From Candidatus Melainabacteria bacterium RIFCSPLOWO2_02_FULL_35_15 (GTDB lineage Bacteria; Cyanobacteriota; Vampirovibrionia; 2-02-FULL-35-15): a stretch of 34,864 nt of DNA. The position numbers were made by a program, and so were the translations under genes. Location of the stretch: the NCBI GenBank assembly GCA_001784585.1, contig MFRN01000005.1, positions 35,379 through 70,242 on the forward strand. The letters are read 5' to 3'. Within the stretch, counting starts at the first letter, position 1. The number at the start of each line of letters is the position of its first letter. The notes beneath the pieces are model-generated. The model searched no databases. It was not told the DNA's origin and saw only the letters and a program-made list of their open reading frames with translations. Below are positions 23,696-30,090 of this stretch, one piece after another.

Positions 23696-24418
23696 ATGCA
23701 AGAACAAAACTTAAGTACAGCCCTACTGACATCCGGCTTGTTTTTAAACAATCAAAATTTATTAGGGTTATTAATAAAAAATAGGTTACAGACTATAAAT
23801 AAAACGTTAATTAATACAAAAGAAAGTGTTCTCTTTGAAGTTGATGCACATAAACCAGACTACTTATTCCTTTCTTCTTCTTTACCAGGTGTGATTGATA
23901 TTCTTGAAGTAATTACAAGGGTAAAAAAATCTTCTCCAAAAACAAAAATTATTTTAACAGTAAATAAAGACGACGCAAATAAAATTTTAAGTTGTATAAT
24001 TGCAAATACCGATGCGATTATTTATACAGAGTGTCTGAATGATTCTCTGGAAACTGCAATCAAGCAGTTGTCAAAGGGGCAAATGTTTTTATGCGGGTTA
24101 GCAACAAATGTATTAAAATCTTCCCTGCAAAAGCAACAGGTTGAAACAAAATTTGACAATGGTTTATTGAATTCACTTACTGACAGAGAACTTGAGGTTT
24201 TACATTCTTTAACACAGGGGATTAACTACAAGCAGATTTCAAACCTTTTATTTATCAGTGAGTCTACAGTTAAAACACATATAAACAATATCTTTACCAA
24301 GCTAAATGTAAATGACAGAACACAGGCAGTACTTTATGCATTGCATCACGGTATAGATAACCTTTCAAAGAAACCAGATTTGTTTGAAAGTTTGACCGGT
24401 AAACCAGTAAAAAAATAA
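23696..24418 (+). CDS. LuxR-family regulator with degenerate receiver domain
   Basis: Residues ~160-222 form a LuxR/NarL DNA-binding helix-turn-helix (LTDRELEVLHSLTQGINYKQ, FISESTVKTHINNIFTKL). Residues ~5-125 have the length and strand pattern of a response-regulator receiver (KPDYLFLSSSLPG), but the usual phosphoacceptor Asp position is Ser, the acidic pair after the first strand is absent, and the conserved Lys position near residue 110 (IIYTECL) is not Lys. It is therefore probably controlled without phosphorylation. The ATG at 23696 has a strong AAGGAG site five bases upstream, unusual for this window. A five-codon frame (23671-23685) ends inside that site. Targets are unknown. Confidence 0.8.
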   Translation: MQEQNLSTALLTSGLFLNNQNLLGLLIKNRLQTINKTLINTKESVLFEVDAHKPDYLFLSSSLPGVIDILEVITRVKKSSPKTKIILTVNKDDANKILSCIIANTDAIIYTECLNDSLETAIKQLSKGQMFLCGLATNVLKSSLQKQQVETKFDNGLLNSLTDRELEVLHSLTQGINYKQISNLLFISESTVKTHINNIFTKLNVNDRTQAVLYALHHGIDNLSKKPDLFESLTGKPVKK

Positions 24419-28437: not shown

Positions 28438-28469
28438 GTTTTTATTAATACTTTTACTGAAACAAGTTA

Positions 28470-28475
28470 ATTATA
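28470..28475 (-). promoter_or_regulatory. -10 box (TATAAT) of the purF operon
   Basis: TATAAT on the minus strand lies 32 nt before the purF ATG, in the gap between purF and the transposase relic. A TTTACA sits upstream, but only 13 nt away, which is short for a -35 box. Confidence 0.4.
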
Positions 28476-28544
28476 ACCTGCCCTTATTTGTAAAAAAGTA
28501 AAAATGTAATAAAGATTGGGTAAATTGGTATAAATCCGTATACA

Positions 28545-29090
28545 TCAGGTATTCCTTCTTTTTTTATTGCGCCCGAGCGAAAAACTCGAGAGCTTGCTCC
28601 AGAACGACCTGTGAAAAATTAGATTTAAAAGCAGCTTAAGCCACTTTGAGAATGTATGAGCAAGATGAGTAGCTCTCATCTCAAGCTTGCTAAAGATTGA
28701 TTTGTAATTTCTGACATAACGATTAGCCATGTGTTCCTGCATCACATTAAACTCTGATTCAATTAATAACCTCTCACCACCTCCTACTATTTTTACTCCC
28801 TGTGTAACATAATTTTTTGCTCCTCTATAACCTAAGTCACCAATGTATTTTAAGTCTGGTGAACCACGATTTAAGTTTGGAAGCATAACTACATCATGAT
28901 GATTACCACTAACGTATGACCACTCTGGAAATATCTTGGTTAGAGGGTCCAGAACACCATGAAACTTGTATCCGAAGAAAGAACCTAATCTTCCACAATG
29001 TCCAAATCTTCCATCTGGAAATCTTTCATAAGTTTTAAGATTTACTCTTGGTTTTTCTGCAATTACTTGGTATGTACTATCTACAACTCT
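28545..29090 (-). pseudogene. Transposase remnant (DDE type), N-terminus lost
   Basis: One frame of 181 codons runs from just after a stop at 29091-29093 to TGA 28545. It opens directly at VVDSTYQVIAEKPR, the strand that carries the first catalytic Asp of DDE transposases. It continues with GYKFHGVLDPLTKIF, SGNHHDVVMLPNL and IGDLGYRGAKNY (second Asp, GDxGY), then LLIESEFNVMQEHMANRY (Glu region) and a helical tail THLAHTFSKWL. The layout resembles the IS4/IS5/IS982 range; I cannot fix the family. The N-terminal DNA-binding part is missing and no terminal inverted repeats are evident, so it is a dead fragment. Its broken end meets the TGTAAC dyads at 29093-29141. Confidence 0.8.
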
Positions 29091-29092
29091 TT

Positions 29093-29111
29093 ATGTAACT
29101 CAGAGTTACAT
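29093..29111. promoter_or_regulatory. Dyad 1: ATGTAACT-CAG-AGTTACAT
   Basis: A perfect dyad with 8-bp arms. Its core is TGTAAC-N5-GTTACA with centre at 29102. It lies between the transposase relic and the ORF6N gene, exactly 30 bp from dyad 2. Confidence 0.55.
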
Positions 29112-29123
29112 CCGTTATAAAAC

Positions 29124-29140
29124 TGTAACTGTAGGTTACA
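29124..29140. promoter_or_regulatory. Dyad 2: TGTAAC-N5-GTTACA
   Basis: The same half-sites and the same 5-nt spacer as dyad 1, with centre at 29132. Two identical dyads about three helical turns apart look like a paired operator. Confidence 0.55.
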
Positions 29141-29246
29141 TCTTAATCATGATATTGGTTAGTTATGATTCAATCTCTGCATGGCAAATTTAATTCCGAT
29201 AGAAAAAATAGAAAGTAAAATCTTTATCATTAATAGAATATAAACT

Positions 29247-29300: not shown

Positions 29301-29864
29301 ATGAGTACAGCACTAATATCTATAGAGACTATTGAAACAAGAATATTTCTTATTCGTGGGAAGAAAGTCATGCTTGATAAGGATTTAGCTGAACTTTATA
29401 AAGTTAAACCTATAGCTTTAAGACAACAAGTTAAAAGAAACAAAGAGCGCTTCCCTGGCGATTTTATGTTTCAACTTACAAATAAAGAAGTAGAAAGCAT
29501 GGTATCACAAAACGTGATACCTTCAAAACAAAGCCTAGGAGGGCATTTCCCTTATGCCTTTACTGAGCAAGGAGTAGCTATGCTTTCTAGTGTTTTAAAT
29601 AGTAAAAGGGCAATTATGGTCAATATTCAAATTATAAGAGCTTTCACTAAACTTAGAGAAATGATTGAGGGTAATCGTGACTTAAAAAAGAAAATAGAAG
29701 AAATGGAAAGAAAATACGATACTCAATTTAAAGCAGTATTTGAAGCAATAAAAAATTTGATAGAGCCTGAAAGAAAACCAAAAAGAAAAATAGGATTTTA
29801 TGTGGCTAATGAAGAAATAAACGACCTGAAAAATTTCAAAGGAATCAAGTTTTATGATGAATAG
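29301..29864 (+). CDS. ORF6N-domain protein (KilA-N-associated family)
   Basis: The ORF6N domain spans about residues 8-115: IFLIRGKKVMLDKDLAELYK, QQVKRNKERFPGDFMFQLTN, then a variable stretch VSQNVIPSKQSLGG, then the invariant PYAFTEQGVAMLSSVLNSKR and IQIIRAFTKLREM. A coiled coil (residues ~125-150) and a short basic tail follow. The family occurs in phages and bacterial islands and is thought to bind DNA; its function is poorly known. The ATG at 29301 has AAGGA eleven bases upstream and overlaps an upstream frame (ATGA). The variable stretch is itself encoded by an inverted repeat (29501-29521). Neighbours are a transposase relic and tRNA-Ser. Confidence 0.85.
   Translation: MSTALISIETIETRIFLIRGKKVMLDKDLAELYKVKPIALRQQVKRNKERFPGDFMFQLTNKEVESMVSQNVIPSKQSLGGHFPYAFTEQGVAMLSSVLNSKRAIMVNIQIIRAFTKLREMIEGNRDLKKKIEEMERKYDTQFKAVFEAIKNLIEPERKPKRKIGFYVANEEINDLKNFKGIKFYDE
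29501..29521. repeat. Dyad inside the ORF6N gene: GGTATCAC-N5-GTGATACC
   Basis: The 8-bp arms and 5-nt spacer encode the variable VSQNVIP stretch of the ORF6N domain. The spacer length and the inner TCAC...GTGA are the same as in the upstream palindrome at 29247-29273, while the outer bases differ. Confidence 0.6.
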
Positions 29865-29941
29865 TCATTAATTTCGTTCAACAAGATTTCAAGTGTAGGT
29901 TTTTCCATAAGCGAAAAATCGAACGTCGTTAAGTAAAACCG

Positions 29942-29971: not shown

Positions 29972-29989
29972 GGAGTGCTATATAAAAAA

Positions 29990-30076
29990 CGGACAGGGAG
30001 GGATTCGAACCCCCGGATACCTTGCGGCATCAGTAGTTTTCAAGACTACCTCCTTAAACCACTCGGACACCTGTCC
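29990..30076 (-). tRNA. tRNA-Ser (anticodon TGA)
   Basis: An 87-nt class II tRNA on the minus strand. The acceptor stem GGACAGG pairs with CCTGTCC, with discriminator G. The anticodon arm GTAGT-CTTGAAA-ACTAC has TGA in the loop. A long variable arm (GATGCCGCAAGGTATC) and the T arm GGGGGTTCGAATCCC complete the fold. CCA is not encoded; the tRNA is followed by a T-run. Confidence 0.95.
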
Positions 30077-30090
30077 ATCATTTTATATTT

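Follow-up and report, generated by a model that had tools for sequence, protein, structure and literature searches.

A paired palindromic operator at predicted class II-type promoters of DNA uptake, recombination and mobile genes in one Melainabacteria family

The present analysis describes a palindromic operator that is restricted to one family of Melainabacteria among the genomes searched and that stands upstream of genes for DNA uptake and recombination as well as upstream of several kinds of mobile genes. We consider it likely that the operator belongs to an activated promoter of the class II type, that these promoters serve a DNA uptake and recombination regulon answering to a natural-transformation signal, and that mobile genes share the promoter. 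The predicted regulon would comprise dprA, comM, ssb, recA, recJ/pilC and, in one genome, comEC, so competence for natural transformation is the most likely signal, and a natural-transformation regulon seems to be the best reading of the gene content. A family-wide cis-element that links such genes with those for ORF6N and RAYT would reveal how uptake is controlled in uncultured relatives of the cyanobacteria and would suggest, by association, functions for the ORF6N and RAYT genes. One could then examine promoter sequences to test whether selfish genes take advantage of transformation. The operator was encountered in the window, by which we mean the whole stretch of 34,864 nucleotides analyzed here, from Candidatus Melainabacteria bacterium RIFCSPLOWO2_02_FULL_35_15 (genome G000).

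Sequence and distribution of the operator

The initial annotation had drawn attention to two TGTAAC-N5-GTTACA dyads, and both are indeed exact, with centers at 29102 and 29132 and a start-to-start spacing of exactly 30 bp (Table 1). They are the sole matches in the window at zero mismatches, whereas the 16 matches obtained with up to three mismatches (17.9 expected) are noise apart from these two. Within the 1,942,096 bases of G000, the exact pattern occurs 19 times and the reversed-control pattern not once. The motif extends to TGTAACY-N3-RGTTACA, and TGATACC is an alternative form of its half-site; a pattern accepting both forms (TGWWACYNNNRGTWWCA) finds 27 sites in G000 versus 0 for the reversed control. 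Since these exact counts far exceed the reversed control, the exact sites are not a product of chance; at three mismatches the excess is small (312 versus 263).

All 11 genomes of the family (f1, Melainabacteria) contain between 4 and 34 exact sites, the two poorest having 4 and 6, and none has a reversed-control match. When the rest of the 194 genomes of the class are examined, 3 of the 183 outside the family have one site each, and the reversed control gives 10 matches in 9 of the 183. According to the initial annotation, a motif common and randomly placed in the genome, or half-sites that are not conserved in related strains, would speak against an operator; neither was found, as placement is non-random and the dyads are conserved in the sister species. 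Positional counts given below cover 152 of 155 strict sites in eight genomes for start codons and 129 of 133 strict sites in six genomes for pair spacing. Loci were picked by the presence of exact sites, and hence the lists of target genes are not a random sample, whereas the ORF6N and RAYT counts were taken independently of sites.

Table 1. Features around the dyad pair, in positions of the window
Feature	Sequence	Positions	Strand	Basis and remarks
Transposase relic		28545-29093	-	One frame stays open as far as the operator; identified by eye; outside the operator system
Distal operator	TGTAACTCAGAGTTACA	29094-29110	.	Exact match; aligns to TGTAACCCAGGGTTACA of L047 in sister species G001
Proximal operator	TGTAACTGTAGGTTACA	29124-29140	.	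Exact match; aligned with TGTAACCGTAGGTGACA in G001 (L047)
Predicted -10 element	TATGAT	29164-29169	+	23 bp after the proximal operator, versus a family mode of 21
Original ORF6N start, 20-codon relic	MANLIPIEKIESKIFIINRI, then stop	29181-29243	+	Likeness to L047; old ATG at 29181
Palindrome	TTTGAGGTCACAAATTGTGACCTCAAA	29247-29273	.	Likely ORF6N coding leftover (LRSQIVTS); no operator of the regulon
Intact ORF6N gene		29301-29864	+	PF10543, E 1.4e-32; follows the proximal operator at 160 bp
Second AC-N5-GT dyad		29501-29521		Inside the ORF6N coding sequence

Position relative to start codons and a -10 element

It is evident from their placement that the sites are promoter elements. An open reading frame of at least 60 aa starts 31–42 bp away from 65 of 152 strict sites in the eight family genomes, whereas 60 random shifts gave a mean of 9.8 ± 3.5 and a maximum of 21. 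The 87 sites without a start codon at this distance include some distal members of pairs, while others have gaps of 48–90 bp or no called gene beside them. In the 58 promoters whose gap measures 31–42 bp, offset 21 from the site marks the beginning of a TATAAT-like hexamer, the conserved positions of which are T (74 percent), A (74 percent), A (84 percent) and T (90 percent). The -10 choice in these 58 promoters involved a tie-break towards offset 21, whereas the position matrix and a separate test of flanks did not. In the latter, matches to TATAAT at 5/6 or better number 35 at offset 21 among the 254 flanks of 127 sites, versus about 5 each, and at most 14, at other offsets.

Several inferences can be made from this arrangement. 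Firstly, the start codon follows the hexamer by 6–9 bp in 39 of the 58 promoters, and therefore the mRNA would have little or no leader. Secondly, a -10 element at offset 21 would place the site center near -42 relative to the predicted transcription start, the position of a class II activator, and the position matrix of the 58 promoters exhibits no -35 element; together, these features suggest the geometry of a class II activator. For comparison, the class II activator site of P1gal lies at -41.5 (PMC6728893). Presumably, a dimeric transcription factor would bind the proximal 17-bp dyad with its center ~42 bp upstream of the transcription start, and it would recruit a sigma-70-type RNA polymerase to the -10 element without the aid of a -35 element.

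Paired sites recur at a few spacings. Around 129 sites, we counted 78 neighboring matches with two or fewer mismatches (pairs of strict sites being counted twice), with 24 at 29–31 bp, 27 at 48–51 bp, 6 at 61 bp, 8 at 18–23 bp (peaks at 18–19 and 22–23) and 13 scattered. The peak spacings together hold 65 of the 78, whereas the reversed control consists of 16 scattered matches. A single consensus serves both sites of a pair, and the recurring spacings are helically phased. Both sites are probably bound cooperatively by one predicted factor, a second dimer on the distal dyad, approximately 3, 5 or 6 helical turns upstream, probably cooperating with the first. The initial annotation had proposed a cooperative paired operator for the window; its spacing is well supported, as no single distance between neighbors is more frequent than 30 bp (16 of 78) and a fixed promoter position is favored, whereas cooperativity itself is something we infer.

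DNA uptake and recombination genes

Site loci were read in eight genomes, and the genes most consistently associated with the operator there are comM and dprA, each having a site in seven of them, with gaps of 33–36 bp for comM (and a second site 49–50 bp upstream in each) and 32–37 bp for dprA. The exception in both cases is G007, whose six exact sites include neither gene. Furthermore, 7 of 10 dprA loci named as Melainabacteria or Caenarcanales have the site at the same place, while L134 is one base off, L133 has a degenerate form and L135 has none; dprA loci from other groups lack the site in 4 of 4 cases. These loci are not independent of the previous count, as five of the seven site-bearing named loci overlap the eight genomes read (L126–L129 and L132 belong to the same genomes as G001, G003, G002, G009 and G005).

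All six ssb-operon loci that were checked also have a site, in G009 with variant half-sites. Further sites lie upstream of a secreted-protein gene that precedes recA in G000, G001, G005 and G007, and within the pilC/recJ intergenic region in G000, G003, G005 and G009, with a pilC site in G008. The comEC gene, also known as rec-2, has a site in G007, with TATAAT at offset 21 and the ATG at 39 bp. No exact site occurs upstream of comEC in the other six of the seven genomes examined, one of which offered less than 100 bp of upstream sequence, and comEC was consequently rejected as a constant member of the regulon. At mutL, the site overlaps the start codon in six genomes, a position that would fit repression of mismatch repair rather than activation. 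The mutL operators at L013:3383-3417, L071, L107, L245 and L249 encode part of the first residues of the protein (GYI). Many operator targets are not competence genes.

This mixture of targets raises another scenario, which we regard as unlikely, in which LexA or a DdrO-type repressor would recognize the dyads as the boxes of an SOS-like regulon extending over recA, ssb, recJ, mutL and mobile genes. The presence of recA, ssb, recJ and mutL along with a Bro-N gene among the targets would agree with such a regulon, as would the overlap of sites with the mutL start codon. The RDR regulon of Deinococcus includes ssb, and its motif, RDRM, is palindromic and differs in sequence from the TGTAACY-N3-RGTTACA operator. 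This regulon (DdrO/IrrE) is a known repair regulon, and RDRM is a conserved promoter motif common to repair genes including recA, much as the present operator is. However, DdrO is a repressor, whereas an activator is suggested here by the lack of a -35 element and the preference for a position near -42, and dprA, comM and comEC are among the present targets. To our knowledge, dprA, comM, comEC and pilC do not usually belong to SOS regulons, which also counts against this scenario. Finally, LexA is present in the family (L195 of G008, PF01726 and PF00717), but in this one genome the region upstream of lexA has no operator match with two or fewer mismatches and instead contains its own GTAC-N4-GTAC dyad (L195:914-1064), which resembles the cyanobacterial LexA box.

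Mobile, accessory and small membrane protein genes

In the preferred reading, single-gene mobile elements, including ORF6N genes, RAYT-like transposases, RhuM and others, carry the same promoter. An exact site of either half-site form lies within 260 bp upstream of 15 of 18 ORF6N matches in six genomes; the exceptions are the full-length L207, which lacks a site, and the partial L211 and L217, which have none in the stretch displayed. RAYT-like genes gave 22 matches, of which 16 were assessed, the rest being fragments or the second piece of one gene; 13 of these 16 have a site. For both gene types, a site was defined as an exact TGWWACYNNNRGTWWCA match within 260 bp of the called start, except that L227 of the RAYT-like genes was counted as positive on the start seen at the locus rather than the called start; the reversed control gave 2-mismatch matches only. 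Further site-bearing genes encode RhuM, Bro-N, GIY-YIG, 23S-IVP, DUF4160/DUF2442 and BrnT-like proteins, the last below the Pfam cut-off.

The abundance of sites at ORF6N genes, together with ORF6N being a predicted DNA-binding domain, might seem to favor the proposal of the initial annotation that the pair is bound by ORF6N-type proteins themselves or by the regulator of a lost IS element. We consider this highly improbable. A regulator of the ORF6N type is unsupported because ORF6N is itself a target, and the same operator is common at genes without an ORF6N neighbor, such as dprA, comM, recA and ssb. As for a lost mobile element, the transposase relic of the window merely adjoins the dyads, which are explicable without any such loss. 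The relic was described as broken where the dyads begin, and the two are in fact adjacent; adjacency is all that stands, as the relic frame is open to about the first dyad. An IS or transposase origin of the dyads was rejected on the same grounds, a search of 28441-28660 against 29031-29125 for terminal inverted repeats of 12–18 bp having found none. Pfam had no match for the 113-aa ORF of the relic.

A still fainter prospect is that the sites are REP-like dispersed palindromes moved by RAYT transposases of the same genomes, as the 13 RAYT-like genes with an adjoining site might imply, but such palindromes would have no promoter geometry, whereas the sites favor a fixed distance from start codons and the -10 element and are found again at the promoters of orthologous genes from different genera, and in some of them a TGATACC half-site opposite TGTAACC breaks the stem.

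The operator also accompanies a family of small membrane proteins of ~70–85 aa with the motif GFALMTPFG. A pattern search of site-bearing loci found 31 such genes, and for 29 of them a site lies no more than 160 bp from the called start; no convincing Pfam or NCBIfam match was obtained for the 20 members searched. The family is multicopy, as at L015:9094-9300, L036:3456-3677 and further loci in six genomes. In G000, the gap between prfB and rplT (L010:1278-1304) contains a single operator alone; the same gap in G009 (L066:1994-2500) contains small membrane genes with two sites, and G005 has prfB, a site and a small membrane gene in the same order. The operator in G000 may be the scar of a gene loss.

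Building upon the preferred reading of an activated uptake and recombination regulon, we tentatively suggest a broader possibility, which we hold with less than even confidence. Transformation in this family might be run by a dedicated operator and activator, to which mobile genes (ORF6N, RAYT-like, RhuM, GIY-YIG, 23S-IVP and BrnT-like) and the fast-turning small membrane family have attached themselves, being expressed at the entry of foreign DNA, while the same factor may repress mutL from the site over its start codon. With expression timed in this way, mobile genes could spread through transformation and leave operator scars when lost. If true, repression of mutL would relax mismatch repair during uptake.

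Comparison with known systems

Several features of the operator are reminiscent of other regulatory systems. The ComK boxes of Bacillus are likewise paired, helically spaced dyads upstream of late competence genes, whereas their sequence is AT-rich and different. The lambda operator bound by cI has the same dyad length and geometry, as it is an odd dyad of 17 bp with an ACC-N3-GGT center, cooperative neighbors and activation from approximately -42, but its outer half-site bases differ from those of the operator described here, and no protein resembling cI was identified.

With regard to gene content, the closest parallel is the CRP-S/Sxy system of Haemophilus and its relatives, in which a palindromic promoter element is likewise predicted at comM, dprA, ssb and a similar list of genes. 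For H. parasuis, the predicted CRP-S sites include those of comM, dprA (weaker), ssb, rec-2 and pilA (PMC5809987). The two elements are distinct, as the present motif has a TGTAACC half-site in a paired dyad of odd length (17 bp), rather than the CRP-type TGCGA of CRP-S, or TGTGA, with an N6 spacer. Moreover, the position here is class II-like, whereas CRP-S promoters are described as class I-like (PMC6728893), and the phylum is unrelated. Within the portions of the literature consulted, we found no description of competence control in Melainabacteria and no mention of the regulon in print, nothing useful joining ORF6N with RAYT or RhuM, and nothing relevant under the letters of the motif.

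Search for the regulator

The family genomes were surveyed for proteins of the HTH_3, CRP and GerE families, and LexA was examined in G008; no candidate regulator is put forward from these four families. Neither the HTH_3 proteins (2–7 per family genome) nor the GerE proteins (7–11 per family genome) include one that is clearly family-restricted. A 105-aa HTH_3 protein of G000, G001 and G009 was rejected, as it looks like an antitoxin and lies beside a gene judged by eye to be RelE-like in G001 and G009. CRP is encoded exactly once in each of the 11 family genomes and is also present in several other families. Its recognition helix, SPRETVNR, is of the type that we assume to read TGTGA, and no exact site occurs upstream of its gene; CRP is disfavored as the regulator on account of both. 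GerE proteins of ~100 aa located ~4–6 kb from the ssb-operon site in G000, G001, G003, G005 and G009 constitute a weak lead. The window itself encodes a NarL-like regulator (23696-24418) with a GerE domain and a receiver domain (PF00072) that falls below the cut-off.

The window locus: a broken ORF6N gene

The origin of the pair in the window becomes clear when the locus is compared with L047 of the sister species G001, which contains an intact ORF6N gene. Positions 29091-29237, including both dyads, match the promoter and the initial codons of this gene at 86% identity (E 2e-42), and positions 29334-29898 match its remainder and 3' flank at 83%. Thus, the pair represents the operator of an ORF6N gene whose original start has been lost. 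The 96 bases between the two L047-like pieces contain the stop after 20 codons, the palindrome and the present ORF6N start at 29301. When placed on L047, these pieces share ~24 bases, an overlap of the kind that recombination between two copies of ORF6N would produce. Presumably, the pair once drove this ORF6N gene before it was broken close to its start, and transcripts from the pair could still reach the intact ORF6N gene.

The initial annotation had also noted that the operator pair shares an AC-N5-GT core with two dyads of the ORF6N gene (the palindrome and the second dyad of Table 1). The core is literally present in both, but they are other sequences, with GAGGTCAC and GGTATCAC as their arms, and neither is among the operator matches in the TGWWACYNNNRGTWWCA search. 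The palindrome instead resembles pieces inside the ORF6N coding regions of L057, L053, L015 and L101. ORF6N coding regions in the window, L057, L053 and L101 hold near-perfect palindromes (VSQNVIP and LRSQ.VTS in translation) whose sequences vary between paralogues, and it is possible that these are self-recognition or recombination sites. A tRNA-Ser gene (TGA) lies on the minus strand at 29989-30077, ~125 bp after the ORF6N gene.
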